Assembly (NCBI RefSeq): GCF_963678975.1
Contig: NC_089274.1
Location: forward strand, 18,741,633-18,805,632
DNA: 64,000 nt
Reading direction: 5' to 3'
DNA from: Dysidea avara
Taxonomy: Eukaryota > Porifera > Demospongiae > Dictyoceratida > Dysideidae
In this document: in pieces, positions 1,322-53,270 of the stretch
Numbering within the stretch: the first letter of the stretch is position 1
Layout: every line of letters starts with the position of its first letter
Program-made: the position numbers and the translations under genes
The notes under the pieces: generated by a model
The model's input: only the letters and a program-made list of their open reading frames with translations
What the model was told of the DNA's origin: nothing
Databases searched by the model: none

Positions 1322-1477
1322 GACCGTTCAAAATTAACTGCGAACACGTGTTTCAGCTAAGAAAAAGGCCGAACTGGGTGGTTCGATTGTGGGTTTTTAT
1401 TTTTTATCCGGAGGATATTTTTTACTACGAAAAGCTGTTCAACTGAGAGAACTGGCCAAACACTGTTGATATGTGAG

Positions 1478-1836
1478 ACTGAGCCTTCTGAATTATAATT
1501 CATAAATGGCTCAGACCACAAAGTGGTTGCAAGCTATTTAGAATTATATGAAGAGGGTGAGGTCGAGCATATCAATGGTGTATGGCCAGTTTCCATTCTC
1601 AAACAGCTATTTCGCAGCTCTAATTATTGCACACTCCTGTGTGTTAGTTTAAAAGGAACCCACAATCGATCCCACCTCGGTCTTTGAGTAGCTTGAACTC
1701 ATGCATTACTCCGGGTGGGAGGGTGGGACCATTGATATGCTCGACCTCACCCTCTTCATATAATTCTAAATAGCTTGCAACCACTTCGTGGTCTGAGCCA
1801 TTTATGAATTACATTTCAGAGGGCTCAGTCTCACAT
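1478..1836. repeat. inverted repeat at the DIRS-like element boundary
   Basis: Bases 1478-1583 and 1731-1836 are near-perfect reverse complements of about 105 bp. Both arms include a segment ending in gaggtcgagcatatcaatgg or its complement. The spacer (about 1584-1730) is a plus-strand copy of the leader found in minus orientation at 4760-4890. The layout fits inverted terminal repeats of DIRS-type elements, or two element ends fused head to head. I cannot tell which. Confidence 0.6.
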
Positions 1837-11733: not shown

Positions 11734-11770
<37 letters not shown>

Positions 11771-14700
11771 TTCATTATAAAGAGTTGTGATAACATATAC
11801 TCACTCGTTTAACATTAGCTGCAGGGCCTGCCTCCCCGGCATGAATGGTGATGTGTAATCCAGACTGCTTAGCTCTCTACAGACCATAAAGTTGACGAGA
11901 GTCAACAATGAATGTGGTAGTCACTTTGAAAGCATCAATGTGTAGTTGATGCATAGGAACCATCTCATCACCAGCAATGTCCACTGCCACCACACCCTTG
12001 TCACGATAGCGTAGCGCTAAGTCAACCATATCAGCTGCTTGTTCTGTAGAAATTACCATACAACTAAAATATTATCACAAGGGGGTTTATCACCTGTATA
12101 AGGAAAAGGGGGAAAAGTGGCTTTAAATATAACAAAACAGTATGAGGCCAAGTGTATGAGTATTTTTAAAGAATATTCATGTATTACTGAAATATCGCAG
12201 TAAAGTGATGGAATAACAAGAAATTGGTGAAGTCTGAATTTCTAGGTGCTGTGTTCATGAAGTTCAGAATTCTTTAGCAATATTACATGTATTTAGCAAT
12301 ATTACATGTATTTAGCAATATTACATGTATTTAGCAATATTACATGTATTTCAATTAACCCTACACTAACCAGGTGCATTGGTGGTAAAACTGATAATCA
12401 TGTTGATGTCAATCCCAAACTCTTTTTTTCCCTTGTCTAGACCACTCACTATAGCGTCCATCACTTCATCATTGGTCAGTGTGATTTTGTCAGCTGCCAT
12501 TGATGAGTGGGCCAACAATGGAGGATTAAACCTCAACTCTGAGTACAGCACTCCTGCCTGATAGCTGGCCTTACTGAAATCATAAGCAACCATCTCTAGT
12601 GCTTTACTTGAACCACTAAATATAACACCAAATGTTAGTTAAACATTCTAATAGTGTAGTCACAGCTACTCACCTGATGATAGACTGAATGGTACCAAAC
12701 GGTTTCAAGAAAATTGCCAGAGATGGTTGTGGTTCACTCAGACTAACATGACTCCAAAATTCCTCCATGTTGTCACAAGGCAAAGGCACTTCACGTTCCC
12801 TATAACAGTACACACATAATATGTCTTAATATGATGTCACAGGTTACCTGGCTATAGTGATGAGTGTCTGTAGTTGGCAAGCTCCAGCTAAATGAACATG
12901 TAGCTCCACCTGCACATGCAGACAACAGATATTATGTGTAATTTAAAGGGAAATATAAATTCCCACATATCTACAAGGGTGAAAATCTGTTCTTATATTA
13001 TCTGTGGAAACCCTACATCAGTTATTCAGTATATAGTGCATAGGGAGTGTATAAACTGTGGAATGGACTACTGGAATGGAATTTTTAAAATTTCAATATC
13101 ATTTAGTTTTTTTACATCTAAAAAAGTACAACTCCCCCCTTAAATAAGCAAATAAATAGGGATGCTTTCTGACATAATTGTGAAAGAGACTCATTGTAAG
13201 CATTTGCAAGACAGTCTCATTTCACGTGACTTTACCCAAAGATTTTTGCTTAGGCTCCTAGGTTAGGGGTAAACACCTCATACAGGCTCTGCCTTCTGTG
13301 TCCGCCCTCCACTGCCTAACTGATAAAGTTGATAATAAATAAATGAATACTTCATTATACAGTGAATGTACTTTTACAATGCATACATGTAATCAGCTAG
13401 CTAGCTAACTTTTTATCATTTGGGAACAAGGGTTAAGTCAAGAGTATTCTTGGTATTCCCAATAAACTGCTATTGTGCATGTTCATAACTGACTTTACAG
13501 TACATTACATTGGTAAACTGTGTCTATGGTGCGGTGAATTATGCTAAAAGAGCTGACTTCAAGGGAAATCCTATTTATTTGTTTACTTACGGGGAGGAGT
13601 TGTACTTATTTGGATGTAAAAACTGATAATGAACTTTAAAAAATTCCATTCCAGTATTCCACTATTCTAGTAGTCTATTCCACTGTTTATACATTCCCAT
13701 ATTACATGTGTCACTAACAGAGCTGTGATATCCAAGTAAACGATTGTGGACACTTTATGTATATGGCTTCATATTCAGCTTGCATAAACACGTTACGTTG
13801 ACACTGCACTTTGATTGCCAACATATTGCACATTTGGTGTTTAACACCTTACTGGACAATATGGTAGTTATTGTCCAGGCAATAATTGTCCAAGTAAATA
13901 TGCTTCACTGGGATATAAGTGATATTAAAACCTCATTAACTTTCAAAGATCAAACATACTATGCATATCATGTTCTAACAGTTGTTGTTTACCTGACTTG
14001 TTGATCTAAACAATAATTATCACTTAGTTCTTTGCTGGGTGCGCACACCATAATATAATCTGAATCATGTCATATAAAAAGGTCCACTTTTCTCTTCTAA
14101 AAGAACCTACCTAGATAAAAGTCTGGCTATGGCTCTGCAAAACTATAGCCAGTGTTGGGCAAGTTACTTTGTAAAAGTAACTAGTTACATATTACATATT
14201 ACTTGCAACAGAACTATTTAGTTACAGTTACATATTACCCATAAAATAAAGTAACTGTAATAATATTACATATTATATTACTTTGTGTCCACAACCTTAA
14301 ACTGTCACGTGTGAAACTACCACCTTATCACGTGACATGATTGCGTTGTTGAACAATGTGCAAATCTTGGTTATAAGTAAGAAGCTAGTGAATAAGCTTC
14401 ATTCAGTAGGCCTCGTTACTTCGTTGTGGTTAGGCGTTACTCAGAGGATTACTAACGAGATTAGTAACTTCGTTACTTTTAGTAATAATATTACGTCATA
14501 TTAGACTCGTTACAGTAATTATATTACTTAGGTAACGCGTTACGTTTGTAAGTAAAGTATCTTGCGTTATATTACCTGTTTTCATAGCGTATTTCGTTAT
14601 ATTACTTTGTTACCACAAAAGTAATAATATTATGTAACGCGTTACATAAGTAACGCGTTACTCCCAACACTGACTATAGCAATGCAGCTTGTATTGAAAT

Positions 14701-15534
14701 AATTTACTTTAGCATACTTTGCTACAGATATTTCTGAGTGTGAACCAGACTATCCAGATAAGGGAGGTTCCACTCTAGGCTGTTTGCTGATTGCTACAAT
14801 TTCAGGATATTGACTCCTGCAAGCTGCCATTTACAATCACCTTGTCCTGTTGAAAGTTGGGGGTGTACCATGTACTATTGCAAATAAACGCCCTGTGGCA
14901 CATTGCATGGTAGCCTAAGTCTACAGCAGACTATGCTGTTGCTGCGTTCTTACTGGAAGCAGCTGTTGTTTTGTTCTGTAGCTGCTTTTTACATGTACAG
15001 CTGTCAGCTGATGGCTATCTGCAGCTACCGATGGCATGCAACTGTTGCTGATACTAGGTAGCTGTTTATTGTTAGCTGCATGCTGTATATTCTGTCAATT
15101 ATGACCTGTTATCAGCCAGCGATATATTTATATTTATGCTATAATGTGTGTATACCAATCTGCAATGATTCTTTTAGCTAGAGATTTATGACCACAAAAA
15201 CCTGTAGTGTTATCCCACTATCCGTCCACCTTGAGTGCTGCTTATTGCAAGCATGAACAAGAGAAATAATGATAAAACCATAGATACTACACCCACGGGG
15301 GGTGTAGTATCTATGATAACACAAATAATTAAATAATATAAATACGCTTATGCGCCCCTCTGGTATATCCCTATTTAATAAATGGGGTTCCCCACCAGAA
15401 TAAGAAACAGCCACACTAGTACTTCTAGTTACAGCTCAAGATAGTCAAGTACATTTTACGGTAAGAAAACAGTGTCTGCATACCTTTGGAATGGAACAGT
15501 ACAGTTGCGGAATGTTTCGCGGAACAGCTGACAT
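10561..15534 (-). CDS. adenosine deaminase, paralogue A
   Basis: Exons on the minus strand: 15534-15484, 12909-12848, 12799-12674, 12615-12371, 12043-11925, 11876-11805, 11726-11625, 10979-10915, 10857-10728, 10674-10561. All introns are GT-AG and the joined frame closes at 361 residues (human ADA has 363). The enzyme hydrolyses adenosine and deoxyadenosine to inosine and ammonia in purine salvage. Zinc and catalytic residues are present: HVH (H21, H23), HAGE (H213, E216), GHG (H237) and SDD (D294, D295), which matches the metal-binding and catalytic set of family members. No signal peptide is seen, so it is probably cytosolic. The start at 15534 gives a 17-residue first exon ending SIPK before VELHVH, just as in paralogue B. 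Intron 1 (2.6 kb) carries transposon-derived inverted repeats. Confidence 0.93.
12273..12348. repeat. 19-bp tandem repeat, four copies
   Basis: The unit tttagcaatattacatgta is repeated four times without visible mismatch, in the ADA-A intron between the exons at 12371 and 12043. It is a simple minisatellite. Confidence 0.9.
13030..13710. repeat. inverted-repeat element in ADA-A intron 1
   Basis: Bases about 13030-13160 and 13568-13710 are imperfect reverse complements of roughly 120 bp; both arms contain the segment attccattccagta or its complement. The spacer carries no gene. This is a MITE-like fold-back element. I did not find a clear target duplication. Confidence 0.65.
14150..14672. mobile_element. 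hAT-type non-autonomous transposon (MITE)
   Basis: It starts CAGTGTTGGG and ends CCCAACACTG, with an exact 8-bp target duplication ACTATAGC at 14142-14149 and 14673-14680. The CAGTGTTGGG end plus an 8-bp duplication is the classic hAT signature. The interior is rich in gttactt / aagtaac repeats and codes for nothing. It lies in intron 1 of ADA-A. Confidence 0.92.
15279..15315. repeat. short perfect hairpin in ADA-A intron 1
   Basis: The arms catagatactacaccc and gggtgtagtatctatg are complementary around a small loop. The same hairpin sequence occurs at 40768-40804 in intron 1 of ADA-B. Confidence 0.85.
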
Positions 15535-15905
15535 TTCTATCGATAGTTTCGATTATGGTTTATGTCCTATCACGTGCGCACCACAAAGAAGTAAACCTCG
15601 GCAGAGATAATAGAGGGGCGCGTATACTTATTATCTCTGAGCTCGGGAACGTCGCACAACAGATTTTGAAACTGATTTCTTTAACATTTGTTGAAATTGT
15701 GAGCCTGAGTGTAGAAATCATAAGCTGCCAAAAGAAACCTTTTGAAGTTGTGCTAGCTAGTGCTGTTTTATAAGTATGCAATTATTAAAGTGGCAAATAC
15801 CATGCAATATAATAGTAGCTAAACCCTTATCTTTTTTCCCCAACCTCTCTTTGCAGGCTGTCTAAGTTGATTCTCGAGGTTTTTTTTTTTTTTTTTTTTT
15901 GCACA

Positions 15906-16313
15906 TCGCAATGATGGCAGCAGCACTTAGCAGCAGCAGCAGTAAACAGGAGCAAGCAGTACAAGTAACAGCAACAGCAGTAAACAGGAGCAAGCAGTAC
16001 ACTACAAGTAACAGCAACAGTAGTGTGCAGCAGTAAACAGTAGCAAGCAGTAGTTGCAGCAAGCAGTAGTTGCAGCAAGCAGTAGTTGCAGCAAGCAGTA
16101 CAAGTAACAGCAACAGTAAACAGTAGTAAGCAGTAGTGGTGGCAAACAGTACAAGCAGTAGCAGTAGCAGCAAAAGCAAGATCAAGTATATAGTATAGAA
16201 AGTAGTAACAGCAGAGTAAGCATGCATGCTACTGCATGCTGCAGCAAGTAGAATAAGCAGTAGTAGCCAAGCATTAACAAGCAACAGTAGTAGCAGTATA
16301 ACAGCAGTAAGCA
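15906..16313. repeat. AGC/AGT-rich low-complexity tract
   Basis: Irregular repetition of agcagt, agcaac and gcaagcagtagtt units over about 400 bp, next to a 21-bp T run. It is microsatellite-like, with no coding signal beyond simple repeats. Confidence 0.8.
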
Positions 16314-16511
16314 GTCTTTTAAGAAGTTCCGTAAATTATATATGTTTTGAGGATTCATTCACACATAGTATAGAGGTTCAACACAGTAAATGTTTCTAGT
16401 GATGCTAAATAATATTATAACTGCTAATAACTTCACAAGATGAGACTTATTCCTATTGCATGGTCACCAGAAAACTGCATGTGTATATATTTTGAGGATA
16501 CCTGCAGCAAT

Positions 16512-16840
16512 CAGAGGCGGATCCAGAGTTTGGAAAGAGGGGGGGCACCTTTCTAAAAAATAGTTGAAGACCAAAAAAACTTGCTGAAAACCAGTTGACG
16601 ACCAAAAAAAAAAAAAAAGGTCACGACAATAATAGCTAGTTATCCTTACCAGCTATGTCACGTCTGTTATGTAAAATAAAATCCTATTTATAGCTTCATA
16701 GGTAAGCTACACTGCCTCATGAACATTGTGACTGCTTTATTAGAGTAATTGACTGCTCTATTAGAGTATCTCGATCTTGTATGCAATTTCTTGAAGGGGG
16801 GGGCATTTGCCCCAAATGCCCCATCCTGGATCCGCCACTG
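16512..16840. mobile_element. MITE with CAGWGGCGGATCCAG ends
   Basis: The left end cagaggcggatccag is matched by the complement of ctggatccgccactg at the right end. GCAAT occurs at both flanks, which may be the remains of a target duplication. The short interior holds an A run and G-rich and C-rich stretches. The end sequence resembles known hAT-type non-autonomous elements. Confidence 0.75.
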
Positions 16841-17302
16841 GCAATGTGAAATGCTCTTGCCAAACCACTTGCATGCAGAGCCAATTGGACCATGCCAGAC
16901 AGTACCTACAAAATTTTGCTACAAGTATGTCTGAAATTTTGTTCTTCAACATTTTTTATCACAATTTCAGTTGTCACTTGATTACATGCAGCATTTATAT
17001 GCAAAGTGAATCCATGCATGGTAGCTTTGGCATCGAATAGTTATAGTGTGCAATAGATTATGTGTATTCAATGGGGTTTACAGGTTTTCAGTATTATTGT
17101 CTTCTTGCAGACCACCATAATTATAATGAGACAGTAATATGTTCTCTGAACTGCTACCTATATGAGTCACCGGTCTGCCAGTGGAAAAAAAAATCTGTAT
17201 TCACCACTTGTATTGTTGGCAATATAATAGGTTCTTGATTATGCGAGCAAACACTATACTATACCATGCAGTATGGCTGTTGTTTCCTCTTTAATAGTGC
17301 AT

Positions 17303-17920
17303 GAAAGATGATGTTATTGACGATGATGGTGTAGGGGTTCACATGTGGTCAAGATGATGTATCATTGAAACAGTATGAAACCGTCCAAACAGAGCACTTT
17401 GATCCTGATTTTGATGATCCATATTTTGAAAATGGTTGAAGAAGACACTGAAACACTGGATCAAGGTACTGAATCATTTGATGGGCCCCGGATTGCATGT
17501 GTCTCATTGTGATTGCCTTTGTAAACAACAATAGCTACTGTTGCTGCAAAATATTTTGACTAAACTGGAGAAAGCAATTCTTAAGGGCAACATTGCATGA
17601 CTATACTGGGAAATTAATCTGAAGGTCACTGCATTGTCGATTCAAAATTCTTGCTATGACTGATTCTTCTTAGTAACCAATCTTTATTACACTTAAGGTA
17701 GGTTCAATGGTTACAAGTTTTTAGATTTTGAATATTTTTGAGAATATCACTTACTTCATGTTCAGTGCTACAGGATATAGTATTGGTCTCTCATGTGATC
17801 TGTGCATGTCATAATGGTTATGGGTTCATCATTAACACCATCTTGTCATGGAAGCTCTGGGCCCCCCTTGACATTCACAACATACTTCATTATCTTGTGA
17901 TATATTTTATATGGCTCTAA
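17303..17920 (+). pseudogene. partial, internally deleted copy of the NRF-like acyltransferase gene
   Basis: Bases 17303-17697 align to the 5' coding part of the gene at 6422-8710 (roughly 6428-6885). From about 17700 the match jumps to 8277 onward. About 1.4 kb of parent sequence is therefore missing at the junction. Many small indels and stops break the frame. Similarity fades near 17920. It is clearly non-functional as a protein. Same strand as the parent, about 9 kb away. Confidence 0.88.
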
Positions 17921-18195
17921 CGTTTCATAATGATCGATGATGGTATTGTTTACAGTAACTGTGAGACTGAGCTATTGTTCTGCACTGATATTAGCATCTT
18001 CTGTTAGTTCTCATTTACAAATCTGTTAGCAATGGCTTACTATATGAGATTGGTAAAACAAGCCAACAAGGCGAATAGGCAAAAAGCAAAATTAACAGAA
18101 TGATGTTGTCATTCCATACATCCATCCCTATAGCAATGTAAGCACAGTAATATATGTCCTTTCCCTTATATGCATATAAAATTAGAATTGAAACT

Positions 18196-18199
<4 letters not shown>

Positions 18200-18230
<31 letters not shown>
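18200..18230. repeat. TA microsatellite
   Basis: An uninterrupted (TA)n run of about 30 bp, just downstream of the kelch exon on its 3' side. Confidence 0.85.
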
Positions 18231-18233
<3 letters not shown>

Positions 18234-18607
18234 TGCTGCCCCAATAAGGACTTACCTGTAAATGCAGGGGTTAAAAAATGAAATTATTATTTGTACAATT
18301 CATGTAGTTAAAGAACAGTCCATAGGATACATGCATCAATATTTCACCTTGAAATGTATTTGCAAATCAGTCCCCCTCTATAAAAGAATTACACAGTACA
18401 GCATTGTGCACTATTTTAATAAAATAATTTCACATACAGTGCTGACGTATACAAAAGCTATATTGTGCATTCCCTTTACATTATCAAAATGCTAAGTTAT
18501 CAATAATCACAAAATGCATTAAAAAGTTCTATTTCCAATACTTTTCAGAAATTTACTCTTGCTGTTATGCATTTACTACAAAAGTAAAATACATACACTA
18601 TATAGCT

Positions 18608-19615
18608 TCATTTTTTATAAATTGTTAACAAGGTACATGTTTTCACCATATCATCATTAGATGTGTCATGTTTACCAGACAAACCACCAATGAAAAGAAA
18701 TTTGTTTTCCAATATATGAACTGATCTGCCCATGTAATACGCATTGGGGACATCTCCCACGTAGTCCCAGAATTTTGTATCAGGATTGTACATGTGAATA
18801 TGAGGAGTCAGTTTGTATACCGGATCATCATCATCTGGTTCTTCAGTCAGATAGTCCCCAGTAAAAGTTATCAGATGACCTTGATAGTGGTTGAGAGAAT
18901 AAGAGCAGTAAGGCATGTCAGGTAGCTTGTTCCAAACTTGACCAGTATTAGTGGCATTATTGCTCTGTAGTAATTCCGGTAGTGATGCAGCAACCACACT
19001 GACAGTAGTAAAACCTACTTCATTGTCTGTTCCGGTAGCTATATAAAGTTGATTATCAACAAGTAATGGAACTGACTTGCATACAACATGTGGTAGTCTT
19101 TCAACTACACTCCACTGTGAGCTAGCAAGATTGCCATCATTTATGTGCAGGACCTCAACTACTCTGGTAAGAGTGTAGGGATCAAAAGAAGTTGTCCCAC
19201 CAACTACAATAACCACACTTTGGTATGAAACTGATGTACAATGACACCTTTTAGTAGGCATATCAGGGTATGTAGTGAGCCAGCTGTCTATTCCATTCCA
19301 AAGAAATACTGAGTTAAACAATGATATTACACCACTACGTTTTGTATATCCCCCTATGGCTAACAACTGCTTCATATTATGAACAGCTACTAAACTAAAT
19401 TTAGCACAAGGTAGGGGTGGCAGAATGGCCCACTGATCTTTGTCTGAATCATACACAAGTGGATCGATATATGAGCCGTTGGAGTCCTCCACTGATACGT
19501 ATACTTTACCGCTCAGTTCAGTAATGGAAGTAACCCATCTCTTTCCAGGCATATCTGCACATTGTTGCCATAATTTTGAGAGGTTGTTCCAGAAAATGGT
19601 ACTACTTTTGCTGCT
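18608..19615 (-). CDS. kelch-repeat terminal exon (orphan or alternative 3' exon)
   Basis: An open exon of 336 codons, counting the stop, follows a 3' splice site (ttatatag) at 19616. It encodes about five to six kelch blades. These are marked by W-x-x-L-P-x-x-P spacing, paired Gly residues such as LAIGGY and FIGGLSG, and recurring Tyr/Trp. The protein is very similar to the kelch exon at 20750-21763, starts in the same phase (0) with a matching SSKSS-like segment, and has no stop or frameshift. I find no 5' exon of its own between 19616 and 20749. It may be an alternative terminal exon of the pseudokinase gene at 25306, or a gene that lost its 5' end. Kelch propellers bind proteins; the partner is unknown. 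Confidence 0.8.
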   Translation of the reverse strand, partial: SSKSSTIFWNNLSKLWQQCADMPGKRWVTSITELSGKVYVSVEDSNGSYIDPLVYDSDKDQWAILPPLPCAKFSLVAVHNMKQLLAIGGYTKRSGVISLFNSVFLWNGIDSWLTTYPDMPTKRCHCTSVSYQSVVIVVGGTTSFDPYTLTRVVEVLHINDGNLASSQWSVVERLPHVVCKSVPLLVDNQLYIATGTDNEVGFTTVSVVAASLPELLQSNNATNTGQVWNKLPDMPYCSYSLNHYQGHLITFTGDYLTEEPDDDDPVYKLTPHIHMYNPDTKFWDYVGDVPNAYYMGRSVHILENKFLFIGGLSGKHDTSNDDMVKTCTLLTIYKK

Positions 19616-20749
19616 CTATATAATGCACAAGCACAATAAATAACAACAGCTTGAAAAAAAAAAAAAAAAAATATATATAGACTATGCATTGCACGTTCAA
19701 CTTAAACAAAACACTTTTCATTAGTCACCCAGGTAATATAACATGGTCCATCACATTTTGACGAAGAATACCCTTGACCACTGGATTTGACTCCTTTTGT
19801 GACAAACCCAGTGGCATGCTTTTAGTACAAAAATCTTATAGTGACAGCATATACATACTATAGTCTTTTATGTAGGAAGACTACCAAGTCAAAAATATTT
19901 CATATAACATCCTAAATTGAGTTAGTTTAATATCTTGACGGGGGAAACTTTCGTAAGTGCATGTGTTTTGAATACCATTGACCATAAAGGTATTTTGACA
20001 GGCTACTATGGTTATTTGATTCTTCATGCCATAGTTCAGTATATAAAACACTCATGAAGGCATTACATTTTCAAATGTTTTTTTTTACATACACTGGAAA
20101 CACTGCTACATAATACTACATTTGAGTAGATGTATACTACTACATAGCACACAAGAGCAAGAAACCCAACTTGTGTTGTGCTACTAAATGAATTGCTAAT
20201 TGGAGGATGAAACGAACCGTTAATTGCATACAGGTGAAGAAGCATTGAGCCACAAAATGACATAGTTTGTGTACCTTCAACATGTACACACACAAAATTG
20301 ATGCAGATTTCCTTCCAAAGTGCTCTGAAAACCGGCACCTCATCATTACCAGTCAGATGTCACCTTCTAGGTGAATATACTTCTATCCTTGCAGTTGGTG
20401 GCAATACCGTCAGGGTCACCATCAAAGCCTGTCACACAGCACAATATGTACAGGAGTGCACATGACACACTCCACAGTTATGATGCTGCATGAAAGGGCA
20501 ACCATGAGACAAAACCAAGCATTACTTGGTCTCAAAATCTTGAGTCACAATACACACATGCAGTTTTATTTCTGTGCATTTCAGTAAAGTCTTGCAGGGT
20601 AGTTATCATCATATTGTGCGTGTAACTTGTAGGCATTAGTGACTGTCATGGAACGAGAAGTTTAAAAGATCATCATATCATGGTATTTTTGAATATAAAA
20701 TAAGGTTGAAAAATGAAAACAACAAAATTTCAGCTATAGTATTCCTAGG
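19616..20749. other. gap between the two kelch exons
   Basis: No coding exon is recognised. An A run (about 19653-19669) adjoins the acceptor side. A minus-strand AATAAA at about 20573 could be the polyadenylation signal of the upstream kelch transcript. The open frames on the minus strand near 20063-20346 have no family features. Confidence 0.4.
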
Positions 20750-23245
20750 TCACGTGAAGGTCAACACAGAACAGGTCGTCACCAAATCATCATTTGAGCA
20801 TGGATCATGTGTACCTGTCAGGCCTCCTATAAACAGAATTTTATCCTCTCTTATGTGAACTGATCTTCCAATGTAATATCCACAGGGAACATCTCCAACA
20901 TAGTCCCATGACTTTGTATCAGCATTGTAGATGTGTATGTGTGGAGCAAGCTCAAACACTGGCTTGTCCTCATCTGGTCGCTCAATCTGATGGTCTCCAG
21001 TAAAGGTCACCAAGCGCCCCTGGTAGTGACTTACAGAAAACGAGGCATACGGCATGTCAGGTAACTTGTCCCAAACTTGACCACTACAAGTGTTGCTAGA
21101 GCTCTGCAGCAATTCAGGGAGAGATGCGGTGACTATACCACAAGTACAGTGATGCTTTCTGTCATATCCCACGGCAATGTACAACTGGTCATCTACAACA
21201 AGAGGGATCGCACTGTATAATGCATGTGGTAATGGCTCTACAGTACTCCAGTATGAGTCAATAGGATGAGTGTTATCGATGTTAAGAATTTCTACTGCAT
21301 TTGTAACAGCTGGATTGTTATTAGTATGGTCACAAGAAGGTATGCCACCTGCTACAATAACTCTCAACTGGTGACTAATGGCTGAAGAAATATACCACTT
21401 GGTGGGCATGTCTGGATATGTAGTAAGCCACTCTCCTTTCTGATCCCACAAAAACACATCACCACAGACAATTATTTCATTATTATGTTTTGTAATTCCT
21501 CCAATTGCTAACACTTGCTTTTTACAGTGTACAGCTACCAAGCTAAACTTAGCACAAGGCAGAGTAGGTAATATGGCCCACTGATCTTTGTTGCAATTGT
21601 ATACTAATGGATCAGTGTATGAACAATTGCCATCCATCACTGCAATGTACACCAGCCCATCAAGTTCTGCTACAGAAGTGACCCATCTCTTCTCTGGCAA
21701 ATCCGCACACTGTTGCCATGTAAGTTTGAAGCTGCTCCAGAAATTAACACTGCTTTTGCTGGTCTATATATAAAAGATAGTTGGAGTAAGAAACTGTCAA
21801 TGCCAAATCAAAGCTCAAACAGTATTAAAAACAGTTTGATAATACATAATGCACTTTTGCTGCTTGCCAGCCCGACCACAGTCGAAAGATTAGAGACTAA
21901 ATGGTGCATCGTACAACCACCATTTTATGTCACAATAACAAACTCACAGGTGGTACATACCTTATTGGGATGTCTGCCTTGCTTTTACTTTTTAATCTCC
22001 AATCCTATTAGTTGTTGTCTTCCTCAAGAAACCATATTAAGGTGTAAATTTTCCGATGCTTTCCCTACGTTCATATAATTTAGATACCAAAAAACTTGAA
22101 GCGGTTATACTACTGTAGATAAATAGCTCACACATAGCAATCAGTTTTGCTATAGAAAGCAGAACCTGGTGACCACACTCCCTTAATGATCTATTCTACT
22201 TGGGGCTCAGCAGTAAGATCAAGATACTATAATAAAACAGTCACTCTAATACAACAGACATGTACAATATTCTGATAGAACGGTCACTTTGCTATAAAAC
22301 TAATCCATTTAACAATTATTTATTTTTAACATGTATATAATGAAGTAGAGATCCAAACAATAAAAAGTGGTGAGACATGGTAGTATTACAACATAACTAT
22401 GTGGGAAAATCCCTATTTTGCGATGAAAAATGTTATAACATGCCAATGGGTATTTTTCCACAGAGCTTTGTTGTAAAGCCATCATATCTCTTACTTTGTT
22501 TGGATCCTTACTTCATAAGATTTTAGGCACACACTTTTTGTAGTCATAACTCAAGTTGCACCATTATAAAGTTAACAAACAAGTATACAGATATACCCTA
22601 ATATAAAAGTCAACTATGCAGTCAAAGAAGGGTATACTTGATTGGTTTGTAGAAAGAATAAAACTGATACCACTCAGCGTTTCCCCAAACTGTGTATCTT
22701 ACCACTATGCAAAGTCTCAACATCCCACTTCTCACCATAATTAATTCTAATACTTTTGTGTTAACCATCAGGTGCAACCGGGAGCTTATGAGCCGCCAAA
22801 GGAGCATGAAACTTACTCTGCCTGCCGGGTGCCAAATTCATTAGTGATTAGTTTCCATATAAGGAGAGATCTCATTAGTCAATGCCGTATACTAATTGTG
22901 CACGACACTCGTAGCAATTTATTCAAAGAATGTGACGTAATTTGGATTGTGATGGAAATGAGTTTCATGCTCCTTTGCTGCCTTCGGCGGCTCATAAGCT
23001 CCTGGGTTAGGACAGAGTCTTCAAACAGAGCATTATAGTATTATTCAAAACAGTGGATCCTCGGTTATCCAAACATCAGTTATTCAAATGCCCTGATTAT
23101 CCGAATGCCAAAATTGACTGTTCAATTTGAGTATTTCATTGATAAGTACACATTCCTAATAGAATGGACCTTTGTTATTAGGTATGCCAAGACATTAATT
23201 TTTTAAACTAGGCGTGCGCCCGATTTGCTGAAATTGTTTTCGTAA

Positions 23246-23317
<72 letters not shown>

Positions 23318-25306
23318 GTGTGTGTGTGCGTGTATCTATGTTTGTTTGTCTGCACGTACCCACGTGAGCAAAAATGTTAAAAATGATAAAAAGCAGCCAG
23401 GATGTAAGAATTGAAAGCTACATTAGTTAAACTTCCACACACATAAACTTTACTCTGAGGTGGTTTCTTCTCGGCGGTCTCAAATACTGGTATGGTGACT
23501 CTTCATATATTTCTTAACGGTCTCCCTTTTTGGTTTTATAGACGTTTAACAACTTAAAAACAATGTTGAAGGCCTACCAGAGGTAGCGTCTACTTTGAGT
23601 TGAAAGGGGAGCATTACCCATACTTACACGAATGAAAATGAAGGGCAGCCTCGAGGCTTTCTCTATACAATTTACACAAGAAAACACGAGACACACTATA
23701 AAACAGTTGAGAAGATATTTCTGTGTGTAATTTGCAGTTTAAAGTGGTCTGTTATAGTTACGCTTCCTTAGCAGTGCATAGCAATGTAATTACCGGATTA
23801 TAAAATAATTACAAAATATGCTTAATTGCAGTATTTACAAATCTAATTATCTAGCTGAATTAATAATAACAAGAATATAAACTAAATTATATACATGGTT
23901 GTGCCCATTTAGTAGAATGGGATAGTAATAATTGCATGGGCGCCTGGTTTTTAGAAGTAGCATTACATCAACTTGTTTTGTATATGTTATAAGTCAGCAG
24001 ACTTCAGTTATCCAAACAAATTCACTTTTCTGGACACTTTTGGATAGCCCTAGGACTGAAGATATTTGGAGAACTGAGGATCCACCGAAATTTAAACATT
24101 TAAATAAAGTTTTGATAAGCTTCCTACTTATATCCATTACAAAAGGTACTTGACTATGATAGATACCTGTAAATGGGCAGGTTGAGAACTTGAAGATATC
24201 TTCAGCTTGGACACTTCTGACGTTAATGTATCCACCTCACTTTTTAAATGTTGTACTTCAGTATCTTTACTCAGTAGTTCAGCCGTAGCTCTACACAGTT
24301 TGGCAGCTTGATTTGCCTGTTGCTTTTCAGCCTCCTGCAGTCTTAGTTGTGCTTGTAGTAAGTTATCTGGTAAGGTAGACTGTCTGTTGACTACTAGTGT
24401 CTCTAGCTGGTCACATACTTCTTCAGCAGTCGGCCGATCAACTGGAACATTCTCCAGACAACTTGTGATCAAAGGCATAGTCACATCTTCCACTGACTTG
24501 GGGACTTTATCAAGGTACTGACTACGCCTCTCAATCTCTGAAGAAGAATCTGCTACAGTTTGTCCAGACGGGTCATTACAGTTAATCATATTTTGTGCAG
24601 GAGTGGGCCATTGGTGGGACAGTGTGTGAATCATGATACAACCGAATGAAAACACATCTGTTTCCTTTCCTATCACTGCACCGTCATTAGCATACACTTC
24701 AGGTGGCATAAAATCTACCACTAAACTGCAGTGTTTTGTATCAATAAAACGTGCTGTACTGAAATCAGAAATCTTCACTTCCAAACCTTCTGAAACCAGA
24801 ACACTTTCACTAGACAAATTTTTAAGTACAACAGGTGATTCACGAGTGTGCAGATACCTGAGACCCAATCCAATGCTGTGTAAAGTGCTTAATTTGAGTT
24901 CTAACGAAATGGAGGCATTTTCCTTCAGTAGACTAGCTAGATCACAATACAAGTGTTCCATAACGATACTGGGCGTGCTGGAGCTCGGTGGAAAATAAAT
25001 CCCCAAGAAACGAACGATGTTGGGATGACACAATCGACTACTCAGCTCACACTCTCTCAGAAAGACTCGTTTTACCATTTGAAATTCCTGCTCACTCACG
25101 TGATCGGAAATCTGGTCGAAACCAGGTTCCAAATCTTTCACCACCACGAACAGCCCTTCCCATTTCGCCTCTATAAGTCTAGCGTTAGTTCCCTCTTTAA
25201 GCGACTTAATGACTTGAAGTTTATTGATAACACAGTGTCGCAGAGAAGCAGGTAAAGTATCGCGCTGCGTCATTTCAGAGTGTATATCCTTTATTTTAAG
25301 TCGCAT
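20750..25306 (-). CDS. pseudokinase - coiled coil - kelch fusion protein
   Basis: Two exons: 25306-24167 and 21763-20750. GT-AG, phase 0, 717 residues. Residues about 30-305 form a TKL-like protein kinase fold with a VVVK lysine (K57), PPEVY and DVFSFGC motifs. The glycine loop is degenerate. The HRD-equivalent reads LKN (161-163), so the catalytic Asp is Asn, and the DFG-equivalent reads DFS (181-183). Phosphotransfer is therefore unlikely and a scaffold role is more plausible (inference). A coiled coil spans about 313-369 with heptad spacing of L/A/V. The second exon holds a kelch propeller of five to six blades. The first exon starts 68 bp from a CARD-like gene on the other strand. The 2.4-kb intron contains a MITE and a long GT microsatellite. 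Confidence 0.85.
22776..23008. mobile_element. MITE with long terminal inverted repeats
   Basis: The left arm aaccgggagcttatgagccg and the right arm (complement aacccaggagcttatgagcc) match over about 40 bp, including the run ggagcatgaaact. Non-coding, about 230 bp, in the intron of the pseudokinase-kelch gene. Confidence 0.8.
23250..23331. repeat. GT microsatellite
   Basis: A (GT)n run of about 80 bp with a few GC interruptions, in the intron of the pseudokinase-kelch gene. Confidence 0.95.
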
Positions 25307-25374
25307 GTATGCAGGATGATTAAGCTCTGCGCCAAAAAACGAAAAACAGTAGAGACCGTACTGCTGGCTGTAAG
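25307..25374. promoter_or_regulatory. 68-bp divergent intergenic region
   Basis: It separates the start codons of the pseudokinase-kelch gene (minus) and the CARD-like gene (plus). So short a gap implies a shared bidirectional promoter or overlapping 5' leaders. No TATA box is evident. Confidence 0.6.
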
Positions 25375-25710
25375 ATGGGCACCCCTACTGGCTATTACGA
25401 GGCGTATAAGAAATCGTATCTCAGTTTACTGAAAGCTCTTCCTATTGACGACTTGATTCCTGAATTATTCTCAACGGGAGTTCTGCCTGAATATCTGAAA
25501 GAAAGACTAGACGCCACCCCTGTGCGTAGCGAAAAGGTCAAGCTTATGTTTACAGAAATGGACATGGAAGAGAAGCTGAAGGCGGGAAATACAAAACGGT
25601 TTGAAGGACTTATTCGTGTGATGGAAAAATTTAGCACCGATGAAAATGACGTTGTTGTTAGAAAACTAGCACGTGATATTCGAATGCTGATAAATTCGCA
25701 GGATTCTTGA
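25375..25710 (+). CDS. small CARD-like death-fold protein
   Basis: A single frame of 111 codons with an ATG in good context. The whole protein is predicted helical. Short amphipathic helices carry a pattern of buried Leu/Ile/Val, with an LIPELFSTGVLP segment followed by LKERLDAT, and an FEGLIRVMEKF helix near the C-terminus. This layout resembles a caspase recruitment domain, which mediates homotypic assembly in apoptosis and innate immunity. The similarity is fold-level and weak in identity, so DED or another death-fold class is possible. Nothing follows the domain. Its head-to-head pairing with a pseudokinase-kelch gene suggests a shared pathway (inference). Confidence 0.6.
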   Translation: MGTPTGYYEAYKKSYLSLLKALPIDDLIPELFSTGVLPEYLKERLDATPVRSEKVKLMFTEMDMEEKLKAGNTKRFEGLIRVMEKFSTDENDVVVRKLARDIRMLINSQDS

Positions 25711-27339: not shown

Positions 27340-30300
27340 CTAAGAATCGTCAATTTTATATTTTGCCTCTAATTCTTGGAATTTCTTTATCACTGTGTCA
27401 CGCAACAAAGTCTTTTCTTTATCTGACAAGAAGGTAGCCTCAACACCATTAAATACCTGTATGGGATGAAGCACATACAATTTAACATTATAAGTTTTTA
27501 TTTTATTTACTTATTCATTCATCTCTTATTTCACTGCATAGATCCCTACTCCATTAAAAAAAAAATACTAGTACTGAATCATTTGAGATACGGTGCCATG
27601 TCAGAATCATTGCATTAGGGCATGTTTGAAACTTTTCAACTAGGTTATAAAGCCCATTTCTAGCTGGTCAGGAAACCACACAAGTGCATTCAAAATCTTC
27701 GTCTTTACTTAAATAACATGAATGTACAGGTGCAATCAGTCAAAATGTGGTAAAAATAAATACTTCTAACAGACAATATTTCAGTGCAAAAAGTACAGGC
27801 ACAATCCAATAGAAATAATGTTGTATATCTATGGCTTCATATGCCTTGACCCTCTGTGCTTCTTAACACTGCAAGCTAATGACCTGGATTGACACCTCCC
27901 TTAATCAGTTTTTGGATATGATCATCTTGGGAACCTGAATACGGAATAGCGGAATTATGGAATAAGCGAAAATCACATTCTAAATATTTTGTCATTGTTT
28001 ATAGCCTCTATAACGTTTTAATATACATTCCTCACCTCGTAAAGAACACAATCACAATGGCAGCGATCCTCGGGGCAATCTTTAAATAGGATATGTACAA
28101 AGATATTCACTCTAGAACAATCTAACTAAGCTATACTGTTCACTACATAATCGCTAGAAAACTAGAAGTTCTTTGTGCTATACTTGCTCATACCAGCTGT
28201 CACACACGAGCAGCTAGCTAACTGTCCAAAGAGTTTAGCACAAAACTATCTACGTACCCCTTACGTAGCTACCCTGCATGCATGCATGGAATAATCTGAC
28301 CTTTCTTATAACTCTGTTACCATTTCCTCAAGTGTTTCAAATAAATTCGGAGAATAATACTGCTTTCAGCTCCCAACATCAGAGCTCCAACCTCAGCTCT
28401 AACACTTCGTATATAACTCTAATAAATTCGGGCGGTTACTTGTGTGTGACAGCTGGTATGAGTAAGTATAGCACAAAGAACTTCTAGTTTTCTAGCGATT
28501 GTGTAGTGAAGTGTATTTAACATTAGTTAGATAGTTCTAGAGTGAATATCTTTGTACATATCCTATTTAGAGATCACCCCAAGGATCGCTGCCATCGTGA
28601 TTGTGTTCTCTATGAGGTGAGGAATGTATATTAAAACGTTATAGAGGCTATAAACAATAACAAAATACTTAGAATGTGATTTTCGCTTATTCCGTAATTC
28701 TGCTATTCCGTATTCCGCGGAATACAGGTTCCCGATTATGTGACGGTTAATACGAAGGATTAACCGAGGTAACTACGCAACGGTTTATACTATCTCATGT
28801 GATGATTAGTTATGGTCTGGTGCTGGCGTCGGGTATGATAGTATACGGGGAGCTACTTCTGTACATGCGCATCAGTTACCTCGTGCTTTTAGGCGGAATT
28901 TTCACTGGCGTTTTGTGTGACGGCAGATAACGGTTCAAATCAGGAGAAGCAAGGCACAGAAAGGCCTGAGGATCACACTCAGGACCTGGCACAGGAAGGA
29001 CGTAGTGCTCAAGCGGTGAATGTAGTGCGGGTTGACCGAGTTACAAGACACCATTACTGAGCTGATGAAGAAAGCGTGGGAGAACCTTCTTCCATCATCG
29101 GGAGGTGGAGTAATGAGACCACTCGCCCAAGGTGAGATATCCTTCCTTCTCCCCTTTCGGGATGACTCGCCCCTCCCTGCCCCAGTGAGCGGGGAGGGAC
29201 GTCATTAACCACTGTAGTTATCATTCGCCGGCACGCTATGCCGTGGCCCCCCGTTAAAGGGCATTCGAAGAAGACCCGCAGTTTCATGGTTGATATCAGT
29301 TTGTTCGGCCGTCTACGGGTGGCTCGAGGCTTTTGGGCCCTCCCTGGTGAGGGTGTGGGGATTATGTACAACCGCAGCCGTGCAGCTGGGGCCTGTAACT
29401 TCGTCACGTACTTACCTTATTACTGGAGGCCTGGGGGTCACCTGGAGAACCACAGGTACCCCAGCAGCCAAGCAACTGGTAGTGCCCCTCGGTGATCCTG
29501 CCTTATAACTTGGCCCGAGGCCTGATGTTTCTTCAAGGGAGAAGTGTACTAGCCTGAGTGTAATAGCTGTCGTACAGCCGGTATATATGTCAAGTTCTAC
29601 CCGGTTACTACTGTCGCGTGTCTCTGTTTAGGAGTACCGCCTCCGTCCGCACTTCAGCATGTGCAGCTGGTCAACAACCCCCGGCAGGGGTCGGAAGCTG
29701 GGGGCATTGTGACCGTGACACCAGACAACAATACAGCTACTGGCCTTGCCAGTAGTAGCCAAGTGGGCAACCTCGGCAGGGAGTTGCCGATGGGATATGC
29801 TGGAGGGATTTGTGTTGGGGAAGGTTTGCCCCCAGTACCAGAGAGGCTTGCAGCACGGATCAGACGGGGGGGAATTTATTGAGATGTGCGAGTTGATACC
29901 TGAGTATTGGCTAGCTAAAGAGGAAGATGGAACAGTCAAGGCAGAGAGGCAACGACCCAGGAGGGTTTTGGATGTCTTTACCTGGGTGCAATCAATCACA
30001 ATCTATGTGAGTGTCAGAGCAGCACATGATCCTTCACTGATACCTGAACTGATGGCCTATATGTACATGATTGTTAGGGCTAGCCAGGACTTTGGTGGCA
30101 CAAGTTGGGTCAATTATGATACAGTGTTCCGAAGGCAGGCAGCAGCGACTGGTGTGACAACATGGTCAAGGGTCAATGGAACCCTACACTACATCTGTTT
30201 CAACGGTCCGCGTAGGCAAGCCCATCGCTGTGATCTGTGCTTGGCAGCTACACACAGGACCGAAGACTGTGGGCTTGGAGATCCAGAGCAGGAGGGCTCG

Positions 30301-33300
30301 AGTCGTCTGCGGGCTCTGGAGGCAACAGTTCAGTCCCTGTCGTCAAGGCAGACTGCTAGCCATCGCCAGGCCTCCCAGCCGATACAATCATCTGGTCAAG
30401 TGTGCAGAGCCTGGAACAGGCAGGAGTGTCATTTCCGGCAGTGTCGGCATACACATGTATGCAGCAACTGCGGTGGAAACCACCCAGCAATACTGTTGGG
30501 CCGCCAGTCAAGGGTCACACCACCGAGGTGGTTGGTTCCAGCCTTATTGAACTATGTCATAATTTTGTTGTGATTCAGGTCAAACTCAGCTCTATTCATA
30601 TGTAGCAACCGCTGTGTGTTTTTATTAAATGCTTAATCAGAATTATTACTTAGTGGAGTCTCTCACCAGCCGGTAAGAGGCCTCATCCAACTGCGAACTG
30701 TGCTACCAGTGGCTATTTGCCAGCCTGGTTATTTGATGCTGTAGCTAATCCAATGAATGCATGTGCTTAGGTTAGAGCTAGTGAGAAGTTGGTGGGCTGT
30801 TGGCTGGTGAGAGACTGGGGTATGGGATAGAGTCAATAGCCCCTTATTGTCTCCATAGAGGGCTACCAGTACATGGAAGATTTACAAGCCTTGGACTCCT
30901 GTCGTCCGTTGAGCCCACTGAGACTTCCACAGGAACTGTGCAGGGTTGTGACTCCTTTACACTGGCGGGAGTGGGACAGGTTCCTAAGGCAGCACCCAGA
31001 TCAGCAGTTCCGAAGCTATGTGGTTGATGGGATTAGAAATGGCTTCAGACTGGGGTTCGACTGGAGCAGCCCCCTGCAAGCCCCGTCAAGGCTCAACATG
31101 TCTTCAGCGGAGGAACACCCGAAGGTGATATTGGAGTACCTTGCGTCAGAGTGTCAGGAAGGCAGGGTACTGGGTCCCATGGATCCAGGTCAATTCTCCG
31201 ACGTTCACCGTAGTCAATTTGGGGTGGTACCAAAGAGCACCCCGGGAAAGTAGAGACTAATTGTGGATTTGTCTTCTCCGGAGGGCAAAAGTGTTAATGA
31301 CAGGGTTAGCATACCTCGGTGCTCTCTAGCATATGTTCGTGTGGAGGATGCTGTCCAAGGGGTGGCAGCTATGGGAAGAGGCTTGCTGATGGCTAAGGTG
31401 GATATACGCCAGGCATATAGGGCTGTACTGGTACACCCAGCGGACCGTGATTTGCTAGGAATGATCTGGCAGGGAAAACTTTTCATAGATGCAGACTTGC
31501 CCTTCGGGCTGCGATCAGCCCCCAAGATATTCACAGCAGTGGCAGATGCGGTGACATGGATCATACGACAACAGGGAGTGAGGTTTATCATTCACTACCT
31601 GGATGATTTTCTTCTAATTGGCCCCCCAGGGCGAGATGATTGTGCCGTGGCCCTTGCCATACTACTCCAGATGTTCAACCTCCTCGGTCTTCCGGTGGCA
31701 TGGGAGAAACTGGAGGGACCTACGGCATGTTTAACCTTTTTGGGTCTTGAGATTGACTCAGCAACACTGAAGCTCAGGCTCCCCCAAAAGAAATTGTGGG
31801 AGTTACAGCAAACAGTTGCCAGTTGGCTGGATAGAACAGACTGCCGAAAGAAGGAGTTGGAAAGTCTGCATGGTCAACTGGCTTATGTGAGCAAGGTGGT
31901 GAAGCCTGGGAAAACTTTCACCTGCCGCCTGATAGAACTCTTAGTGGGTTTTTGAAAGTCATATTATCACATCCGGTTAAATGAGGAATTCAAGGCTGAC
32001 CTCATGTGGTGGATGACATTTATGAGTTCCTGGAATGGTATGGCTATCATCACCCCTACCGAGCAGGGCTGTCGTGAGTACCACATCTGGACAGACGCGT
32101 CAGGCTCGTTTGGCTGTGGAGCCGTAGCCCCATCGCAGGAGGAGTGGATACAGTGGAGATGGTCTAACTGCACCCCAGACGGTGCAGAATCAGTAGAGGA
32201 GAGCATTCTGTGGATGGAACTCTTCCCGATTGTACTGGCAATGGCTGTCTGGGGAAGGCGTTGGGAGGAGTCCAATGTGATCATACATTGCGACAACATG
32301 GGAACAGTCGCAGTAGTAAACTCAGGCTACAGCAAGGCAGCACCGGTGATGCACCTGCTAAGATGCCTGTTTTTTTCCAGGGCACGTTTTCAATTTACGC
32401 TGCAAGCAGTGCATACACCAGGGGTCCAGAACACTTGGGCAGATGCGGTGTCCAGAAATAACATCAGTTGGTTCTTGTCTCAGGTCCCCAACGTTGGAAG
32501 AGTCCGTTAAACTGCCATTCCGAGGAGTCTGGCAGCACTCTTGCTGGACCAACACATTGATTGCAGATCAGTGAGTTGGACACAACGGTTCAGCAGTTGT
32601 TATAAACGGTTTGGCCCCATCTACATCCAGGAACTATCAGTCAGGGAAGTAAGCGTTTTATAAAATTTTGTAATTTGTATCACGTAAATTTTCCGTTTCC
32701 TGTGAATGAACAGTTGTTGTCATGTTTTGCGGCATACCTGTTTAAGGAAGGACTGAAAGGGGGCACAGTCAAGAACTACATGGCAGCGGTGAGGCACGCC
32801 CAGATAAGTATGGGAGTTGGTGATCCACGAATGAGCAATATGCCTCAGCTGGGATATATAATTAGGGATATCGGGAGGGTTACTGGGGGTCCACCCAGAA
32901 CAAGGCTACCGATAACACCGGACCTATTGAAGGTGATGCGAAGGTCGTGGTCTCCTTCGATAGATAGGAATGGGGCGATGCTGTGGGCTGCAGCGTGCAT
33001 GTGCTTTTTCGACTTCCTACGATGCGGTGAAGTTGTGATATCGTCGGATGCTAGCTACGACCCACAGGTTAATTTATCTCTGGAGGACGTCCGAGTTGAT
33101 AGCCGGGTGAAGCCAAGCTATGTGGAGGTAAACATCAAGGCATCCAAAACGGATCCTTTTCGTCAAGGAGTAAGGGTGTATCTGGGAGCAACATCAAGGG
33201 ATATATGCCCTGTGAGCGCAATCCTACACTACCTAGCCTTGTGAGGGGCAGGACCGGGCCCCCTCTTCAAGTTTAGCGATGGAAAGGGCTTGACTCGGGA

Positions 33301-36300
33301 ATGCTTTGTCTCTGCAGTAAGAGTCGCTCTGAACGCAGGGGGAGTCGATGCTTCATCATACGCTGGCCATAGTTTCCGGATTGGCGCAGCTACGACAGCG
33401 ACGAAGGTCGGAATTCAGGACTCACTGATCCGAACTTTGGGACGATGGGAGAGTTCAGCGTACCTTCTATACATTAGAACGCCACAGAGTACACTTCAGG
33501 AGGTAGCTGGGACATTACTCCGTACTTGATGGAGGCATAGCTATATAACTTTTACTAGTAGCTATTAGTTGTATACTGTAGCTGTGTAGCTGAGCTGTTG
33601 TATAGGTACATTAATGCTAACGTTCATTATTAGAAAGAAATAATAATGGATCATTACAGTAAGTCACGTCAGCATGTTCATTATTAAGCTGGATAGTTAA
33701 TCAATATAGTTTTACAAAGTTTGGCGAGTGGGCGTTTGGTAGGCATGCTCATTATCGGATTTTGTCTGGAAGGTCGGCCAGCAATTCGGTTGCATGGTTG
33801 GTTAGTCAAGTTCGTACATGACGTGCGTGTCGACTTGCGGTACGTGGGTACTGTCTAAGCCACTTTTCCCCGCCTTTCTTGAGTCACGAGCAGGGGGCGC
33901 GATGAACGGCTAGGTAGCACGAAGAGCGGGTAGCGCACAGGCTTGGGTGATGGGGGGTTCCCCCCCATTGGGCTTGGCATCACCCAAGCCAACAAGGATA
34001 TAGCTAGTACTATAGAGCGGTACATCAGTACGTGACACGCAGGGTACGGATATTGCATGCCAGATATATCAACTAGTACGTGTCATCGTGACGTATTTAC
34101 TTCCGGCGCCTGACCAGCACCAGAGGCCAATCTTGTTTATAGGTAGAGTTGGGACCCCCTCCTTTGGCGCGGAGGAGCAGCATTAAATGACGGTTAATAC
34201 GAAGGATTAACCGAGGTTAATACGCGACGGTTTATACTATCTCACGTGATGATTAGTTACGGTGTGGTGCTGGCGTCGGGTATGATAGTATACGGGGAGC
34301 TACTTCTGTACATGCGCATCAGTTACCTCATGCTTTTAGGCGGGATTTTCACTGGCGTTTTGTGTGATCCCTCCCACCCACCTCGGTTATGCTATAGTAA
34401 TGTGTGGTGCGTGGCCGGTATTGCTACTACTGGGTTTCGCGTCCGGCATGCACTCTATACAGTAAGAGCATGCTGTGACAGATGCTGGGCTTGGCATCAC
34501 CTAAGCCAACAAGGATATAGCTAGTACTATAGAGCGGTACATCAGTACGTGACACGCGGGGTACGGATATTGCATGCCAGATATATCAACTAGTATGCGT
34601 CATCGTGACGTATTTATTTCCGGTGCCTGACCAGTACCAGAGGCCAATCCTGTTTATAGTAGGGGTGAAACGAATATTAAATTTAGGTATTCGAATATTC
34701 TTCAAATTAACGAACGAATTATTCTTTAAGAATTTTCTGTATAATTAGGTGCTTGAAAGGGACAAAATCACTATGATTACTACTAAAACTTTAAATGTTA
34801 AAAAAGAAAAGTCCTTTACATGTATTATTAAGATGAAAAATTATATTTTAAAATGACAGTTTTCAGTTGTCAAAATGTTTTCAAGGTTAAATGTGTACAT
34901 TATCCAATTAACGAATATTTAACAAATAACGAATATTTCTTAACGAATACGAATATTTCTTAACGAACGAATAACGAATATTCGTTTCAGCCTTAGTTTA
35001 TAGGTGGAGTTGGGACCCCCTCCTTTGGCGCGGAGGAGCAGCATTAACTCTTGCTTGTCTATGCATATGCCAATTTACAGTACATTTACTACTGAGCACT
35101 TTATGGCTTCTCCAATACACTTTGGTTTTATTTTGTTAGGTTCTTCAAGCATGATATGATTGGTAATTTTAATGGCAGAGCTTATGATAACGTCCAGACA
35201 CTAGACAAAATCTGGTCAAATTGCATAGATGTCTGACCATAATGCAATTTGTCAGGCAGGACACATTGTCCCATCAAAGCACAAGGAAGGAGCCTAAGGG
35301 CTGAGCTCATGCTATCAACAATAACAGTCACTTGGTTGCCAGGAGATAGTATACATTCTTACAACCCAAGGGAGTGACCACTAATGTACCATTGCCAACC
35401 CTCTGGTGTACTGTAACCATATAACAGCTGCAGTAAGGCATGTGACATCTTACCACTATAATGTTCATTAATTTTGCTATGCTATAGTAGACATATTGGG
35501 CATTCATTTTCCACATGTCCAGTCAATTCTGGCAATTGTCCGGCCAATTTTGGTTTGCCAGGACATTGTTGCAGGACAACAGAGAATTCTTATCATAAGC
35601 TCTGTATATCTAATATGAAATGCTCACACATATATGAGTCGGGTTCATTGACCTGAACAAGTTGGCTAGCTTAATAATGCTGAGCACAGAAGTGTTCAGA
35701 AGGTCCACTTTATTTAACACCTCTAAAGACTGACTGTACAGTTGACAAATTTTTCTAAGAGTTGGCTATGTTAATATCTTTCATGAAAAGTAGCTTTGAG
35801 GAAGATGAAGAATTCAGTACATACTATAGCATCAAGCCAGTTACTTTATAGATGGTAATTTTGTGGATAAGGTAAATATCCACAAAGACAGTTTCTTTAC
35901 TTGAAAAGTTCTATAGCAGTCATAATTATGATATAAAAACTAATAAAACTTAACCCAAATAAAATACAAAGCAGTTTCACACATGCTCACCGATTTCCTT
36001 ATCTGTTTGTAGTTCAGTCTTAATTCATTACATGCCATCTTGTAGTCATCAATTAGCGTCTTCCTCATGATGGAGGGATCATCAGAGTTGATGGAGAAAT
36101 TCACATCATCTTGACTAAACCTGGTAGAAAACTTGTCAGTGACATATATACTGGCAGTTGATAGCAGAACATAACAATTACAAAAGTGATATCTATGCCA
36201 AAATAGCCAACTGTGAACAAAAATTGCAGTACTGATTACTGCATCAATTGATACAAAGTAAAGATGGTGGCCCAGGGGTAGGATATGTATTGTGCACCAT

Positions 36301-53177: not shown

Positions 53178-53270
53178 ATAAGCTACCTTCTGTGTTCGCC
53201 CCACGGGTAAATTTATCCCACAATCGATATTGTCAACGAATAGTATTGTTCTAAATAAGGCGCACCAGTC

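Follow-up and report, generated by a model that had tools for sequence, protein, structure and literature searches.

What might a sponge do with a protein in which a kinase domain that has lost key catalytic residues is tied to a kelch propeller, and does the CARD-like gene that faces it head to head belong to the same pathway? The question is raised by a 64,000-nt stretch of the Dysidea avara genome (NC_089274.1, positions 18,741,633 to 18,805,632; hereafter the window, whose own coordinates are used throughout). An earlier description, here called the sequence-only reading, had seen in the two genes a compact scaffold-plus-adaptor module. We propose that the minus-strand protein serves active kinases built like itself as an inactive partner, which joins them through its coiled coil and is directed by either of two propellers, a proposal that we think could equally well prove right or wrong. 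The evidence on each part of it is given below.

The first exon of the minus-strand gene, exon A (24167..25273; 369 aa), encodes a pseudokinase domain of the tyrosine kinase-like (TKL) type followed by a C-terminal coiled coil, an assignment made from Pfam, a motif table, a family alignment and a heptad test. The Pfam matches are Pkinase (5.2e-27) and PK_Tyr_Ser-Thr (1.3e-24), and the heptad contrast of the coiled coil was reached by 1 of 2000 shuffles. The ATG at 25273 matches the start of the family members; another in-frame ATG, at 25306, lies upstream. Exon A ends at 24167 in a phase-0 donor that reads CAG/GTATCT, where the slash marks the exon border. Exon K1 (20750..21763, minus strand; 337 aa and a stop) begins 2403 bp further on at a phase-0 acceptor, TATATATAG/ACC, with the border at 21763, and encodes a kelch propeller with Pfam matches above cut-off to Kelch_2 (2.6e-9, 37 bits) and Kelch_6 (9.3e-6). 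The Pkinase and kelch profile searches that the sequence-only reading had suggested thus bear out both ends of the fusion, for which the predicted product, A+K1, has 706 aa.

As read from the genome, the kinase-coiled coil-kelch fusion is a real family architecture, because nine paralogues share the phase-0 junction and a further member carries both domains in one frame. The junction is present in all nine paralogous loci examined, each with its kelch exon a short way past the kinase exon and all drawn from 17 loci with a kelch match (L038 excluded). In each, the kinase-coil exon ends in CAG or GAG before GTA, the intron is 45-66 bp long, and the kelch exon, which in most cases opens with V-x-K-S-S or something close to it, starts in phase 0; six of the nine introns were read by eye, and three (49, 54 and 56 bp) were listed by a script beside other candidates. 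At locus L071 (C8:7892300-7894600; frame L071:106-2148), kinase and kelch lie in an uninterrupted frame of 680 aa with Pfam matches to Pkinase (5.2e-32) and kelch (2.8e-19), and its kinase looks active (HRD, DFG). The architecture is not singular in this genome: within 12 kb downstream, on the same strand, a kelch match follows at least 26 of the best 34 kinase matches and at least 42 of the 111 listed. It could be argued that the kinase and kelch exons are two separate genes and the fusion an artefact of reading, given an A-K1 intron of 2403 bp and a junction known from genomic sequence alone. The nine paralogues with short introns at the same phase-0 place, the single frame of the distant L071 and the kelch matches behind the best kinase matches make this highly improbable. 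The fusion of a TKL-like kinase, a coiled coil and a kelch propeller described by the sequence-only reading is therefore upheld by the Pfam matches, the heptad test, the junction and L071. A 781-aa frame at locus L025 was also considered as a one-exon fusion; by eye, part of this frame reads like a retained intron, which weakens that candidate, and L071 is used in its stead.

The kinase domain had been called dead for the loss of two motifs, the catalytic Asp and DFG. A motif table of 30 fetched kinase-family loci confirms the first: HRD-x-x-x-x-N has become LKN-x-x-x-x-S in the window copy, so that, of the complete catalytic set (Lys, Glu, HRD Asp, Asn, DFG Asp), the catalytic Asp is replaced by Asn and the loop Asn by Ser. 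The claim about DFG is half right, as the motif has become DFS, with its Gly gone and its Asp kept. The β3 Lys and the αC Glu are kept as well, along with one of the three Gly of the glycine loop. The catalytic loop can be read in 29 of the 30 loci (L020, broken by a stop, was left out). Twenty-one of these keep the catalytic Asp, 19 as HRD, L006 as HKD and L008 as HCD; eight, the window copy included, have lost it. On a kinase tree of 28 rows (L020 and L032 left out), the loss of the Asp needs six changes, at least four of them forced by supported branches; it follows that the dead members sit among active-looking sisters. The nearest relatives of the window kinase on this tree are its sister L006 (96/94) and then L007 (100/98). 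An alignment of 15 of the 30 kinase loci shows a shortened activation loop common to these three, the loop of L012 being slightly shorter too.

Between the window copy and L006, the kinase exon has a dN/dS of 0.13 (NG86; dS 2.24, near saturation). With the catalytic Asp lost and the exon under such constraint, we infer that the domain has been kept for something other than ordinary catalysis. Its placement nearest to TKL members follows from Pfam and PDB matches: the best PDB relatives of the window kinase are CTR1 and MLT, with WNK, TAO and JAK2 lower in the list, and those of the active-looking sister L009 are CTR1, ROCO4, TNNI3K, MLK and RAF, with Aurora and TAO among the rest. No relative of exon A was confirmed among 33 pattern matches in prokaryote genome contigs.

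A second intact kelch exon, overlooked in the sequence-only reading, lies beyond K1. Exon K2 (18608..19615, minus strand; 335 aa and a stop) is free of stops and frameshifts, matches Kelch_6 above the curated cut-off (40.7 bits) and is 60% identical to K1, with flanks unlike those of K1. Its acceptor, ATTATATAG/AGC, with the border at 19615, has the same phase 0 as that of K1, and the exon opens with the same motif, (T/S)SKSS (SSKSS in K2, TSKSS in K1). Splicing of exon A to K2, over an intron of 4551 bp, would yield a product of 704 aa. The dN/dS between K1 and K2 is about 0.15 (dS about 2), and the roughly 49 stops expected in K2 per neutral substitution per site compare with none seen. K1 and K2 are sisters (83/79), and the length of their branches (0.44 and 0.41) points to a local duplication of some age. 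Consensus matches give a candidate poly-A signal behind each exon on the minus strand, AATAAA at 20565..20570, 180 bp past the K1 stop, and ATTAAA at 18415..18420, 188 bp past the K2 stop; hexamers of this kind are frequent locally, nine of them lying on that strand within 17.5-25.4 kb (7.9 kb).

Given these features, K2 is most likely an alternative terminal exon that would provide a second propeller. Another explanation is that the kinase gene ends with K1 only, and that K2 is a separate kelch-only gene or the recently orphaned remnant of a tandem kinase-kelch gene. Tandem kinase-kelch genes do occur elsewhere, and so do broken extra kelch exons, namely a frameshifted second kelch at the sister gene L006 (L065, C12:22828824-22829821) and a partial extra copy at C13:4741978. 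However, the splice acceptor of the family is still present at the homologous position of K2, the exon has been under long constraint, and a search of the DNA between K1 and K2 and beyond (8000-20749) returned no kinase remnant at E <0.1 that could have been its head; the kinase matches in 8000-18607 are pieces of 13-24 aa at E 0.4-0.9. We consider this explanation possible though doubtful. No second intact kelch exon was found at another locus among the matches listed, and the copy at L065 reads as a separate kelch exon duplication that has since decayed.

The loops that join the propeller strands differ more between K1 and K2 than the rest of the fold. The BC and DA loops, which we take by analogy with Keap1 to form the binding face, were assigned on K1 beforehand. 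Of the positions aligned between K1 and K2, 44 of 75 differ in the BC loops, 16 of 36 in the DA loops and 73 of 220 elsewhere; when the labels are rotated, 1 of 336 rotations is as high for the two loop kinds combined. Entropy over 15 of the 22 kelch pieces gives the same pattern, with 0 of 336 rotations as high for both loop kinds (12 of 336 for the DA loops alone). This would be compatible with diversified binding; it is no proof of it, since in propellers generally the loops are more variable than the strands.

The mechanism that we propose is as follows. The minus-strand gene would be one of the catalytically dead members of a TKL kinase-coiled coil-kelch family that has expanded in the lineage, and would give rise to the A+K1 protein and probably, by alternative terminal splicing, to the A+K2 protein. 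The kelch propeller would bind a target or ligand, and the coiled coil may mediate self-pairing or pairing with active sister kinases that share the protein's build. The dead kinase domain could then tune these sisters as an allosteric or decoy partner, and K1 and K2 would give one signalling head two recognition faces. Dead kinases that partner active relatives are known in the TKL group from KSR/RAF and other pseudokinase-kinase pairs, and our proposal resembles these in its kinase group and in a dead kinase with active relatives, the partnership being here a proposed one. We know of no kelch propeller in KSR.

Several points weigh against this proposal. The retained Lys, Glu and DFG Asp make nucleotide binding or residual activity possible, and the loss of the catalytic Asp in the window copy may be recent, since the closest sister, L006, keeps it. 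The joining of A to K2 and the pairing with active sisters are proposals, as are ligand binding and any immune role, and the loop assignment for K1 and K2 rests on the Keap1 analogy. K2 could be recently orphaned or a kelch-only gene: by an estimate that takes half of the dS of 2, about the last 6% of its branch could have been neutral without a stop. Values of dS near 2 approach saturation, and the support for K1 and K2 as sisters is modest.

How does this gene compare with others of similar build? The family members L006, L009 and L013 have the same domain order, phase-0 junction, coiled-coil stretch and kelch type. The window gene differs from its family in the loss of the catalytic Asp and loop Asn, where 19 of 29 keep HRD, and in its second intact kelch exon. 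L071 resembles it in having the kinase followed by the kelch in one protein, but looks active, has no intron and, by eye, no coiled coil, and is distant (41% identity in the kinase, 36% in the kelch). Outside animals, kinases with kelch domains, called tyrosine kinases, have been reported in Entamoeba histolytica (PMC2939887); they carry both domains in one protein, like the window gene, and the passage that describes them mentions no coiled coil, pseudokinase or second propeller, unlike the window gene. Searches for kinase-kelch phrases, and for "alternative last exon" with kelch and propeller, returned 0 papers in the literature searched. No account of sponge kinase-kelch or CARD-kelch genes was found there either, a weak negative as subscription papers lie mostly outside that literature.

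The plus-strand gene (25375..25710) encodes a protein of 111 aa that had been described as a stand-alone CARD-like domain. This description stands through the family of the protein and not through its own sequence. The protein itself, when checked against the CARD profile as had been suggested, gave no Pfam match at E up to 1 or 0.1, and alone it has no convincing PDB match. In contrast, 11 of the 28 members of its aligned family match Pfam CARD (E up to 0.1; best 3.3e-6); L060 and L061 were left out of this alignment, and L035 is the window copy. The family profile resembles the CARDs of known proteins, with RAIDD, APAF1, RIPK2, CARD8, caspase-1 and CED-3 chains among its 40 PDB matches, although the E-values are weak (best 0.015) and unrelated chains are interspersed. 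Counting the protein's own locus, the genome holds at least 148 places that match it at E up to 1, and for 58 of these E is below 1e-3. The gene is under constraint, with pN of 0.23-0.31 against pS of 0.61-0.83 to five close paralogues, and the best reading of these sequences is that it belongs in its own right to a large CARD-type family.

Unlike RAIDD, APAF1, RIPK2 and CARD8, three of the five closest paralogues of the window CARD gene have a kelch exon next, on the same strand and with strong Pfam kelch matches. At L036 and L040 (C8:23146136-23156299), the CARD exon is followed by kelch over a GT-AG intron of ~45-60 bp in phase 0, as read by eye; at L038/L070 (C5:1603135-1607856), the kelch exon lies about 2 kb beyond the CARD exon. 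No kelch frame was found at L037 and L039 in the fetched 3.7-3.9 kb downstream of the CARD. The L070 kelch is 52-60% identical to the kelch exons behind the kinase matches at C5:666500, C5:1450630, C5:832119 and C5:1410610, and 51-52% identical to those of L040 and L036. The CARD and kinase heads therefore appear to use the same type of sensor. On a tree of 11 of the 30 CARD loci, the three kelch-followed CARD exons form one clade (96/97) with the window copy outside, and we infer that a CARD exon was joined once, at a phase-0 intron, to a kelch exon of the kind found behind kinases. The position of the window CARD gene outside that clade gives no support to the idea that it is a truncated CARD-kelch gene. 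Relative to the kinase-kelch genes, L036, L040 and L038/L070 look like head swaps, and the C5 locus has another kelch frame, whose end lies about 600 bp upstream of the CARD match.

The start codons of the two window genes are separated by 101 bp (25274..25374), an upstream region that they may share. The gap of 68 bp given by the sequence-only reading holds when counted from the upstream ATG at 25306; from the family-matching ATG at 25273, it is 101 bp. The pairing is local among the matches listed, because no CARD copy lies within the 1.5-kb flanks of 29 other kinase-family loci (tblastn with the window CARD, E up to 1e-3), and only one of the 148 CARD-like places, the window locus itself, lies within 30 kb of any of the 111 kinase matches. 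The CARD gene thus appears to stand beside the kinase gene by chance and not as a conserved partner, and the compact scaffold and death-fold adaptor module draws no support from recurrence. Could the two genes nevertheless form a co-expressed module of innate immunity or cell death, with the CARD protein and the pseudokinase-kelch scaffold serving a common pathway? The short distance between the start codons, the kelch exons behind three CARD paralogues and the likeness of the L070 kelch to kelch exons behind kinase matches would fit such a module. In D. avara, exposure to microbial patterns was followed by a rise in an Ig-CARD gene and a DEATH gene and by a fall in one kelch gene (PMC6208332), a response that offers no link to the genes of the window. 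Set against this, the pair occurs once among the CARD-like places and kinase matches listed, the other kinase loci lack a nearby CARD copy, and the window CARD lies outside the CARD-kelch clade. We therefore regard the module as quite unlikely.

Two kelch searches combined give at least 193 distinct kelch places, fragments included. Among the matches listed, at least 63 of them lie behind a kinase, 3 behind a CARD and 127 behind neither, a tally in which the CARD places counted are the 58 with E below 1e-3. It is tempting to propose that this early animal lineage built modular sensors, in which a phase-0 intron allowed kelch propellers to be shuffled onto TKL, dead-kinase and CARD heads, in which the dead-kinase head of the present locus picks, by alternative terminal splicing, between two propellers whose binding loops have diversified, and which would amount to a recognition repertoire with a role like that of NLRs. 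We offer this as a tentative scheme that is, on balance, unlikely to hold in full.

Other features of the window are as follows. The A-K1 intron contains an inverted repeat at 22778-23005 that may be a small mobile element (25-nt arms, 92% complementary, separated by 178 nt). The same intron has a long run of GT at about 23250-23330. A long palindrome lies at 27937-28715 (arms of 193 nt and 78 nt, 94% complementary). A retroelement with a reverse transcriptase occupies 29719-33244 (RVT_1, 2.4e-12); by eye, its downstream frame reads like a tyrosine recombinase, with no Pfam match, and RS-rich frames on the opposite strand at 398-4480 look similar. A piece of a Pao-type retrotransposon (Peptidase_A17) is found at 59437-59868. 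Two long open frames encode a 778-aa protein with NRF and acyltransferase-3 domains (6374-8710) and a 576-aa polynucleotide kinase 3'-phosphatase with an FHA domain (53259-54989). On the minus strand, frames resembling adenosine deaminase exons lie at 35940-36305 (1.6e-9) and 40170-40508 (3.5e-6, just under cut-off). Rfam at gathering thresholds gave 0 matches in the window, and a bacterial-type promoter scan of 25200-25450, a type of scan unsuited to animal DNA, gave 0 sites.

If the proposals made here are true, kelch propellers would form the basis of a receptor-like repertoire in an animal, its kinase and death-fold heads being interchangeable, and pseudokinases would have arisen in it several times. 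The family would offer a direct test case for the regulation of living kinases by dead sisters of the same build, and the alternative between K1 and K2 would allow a test of splice choice.

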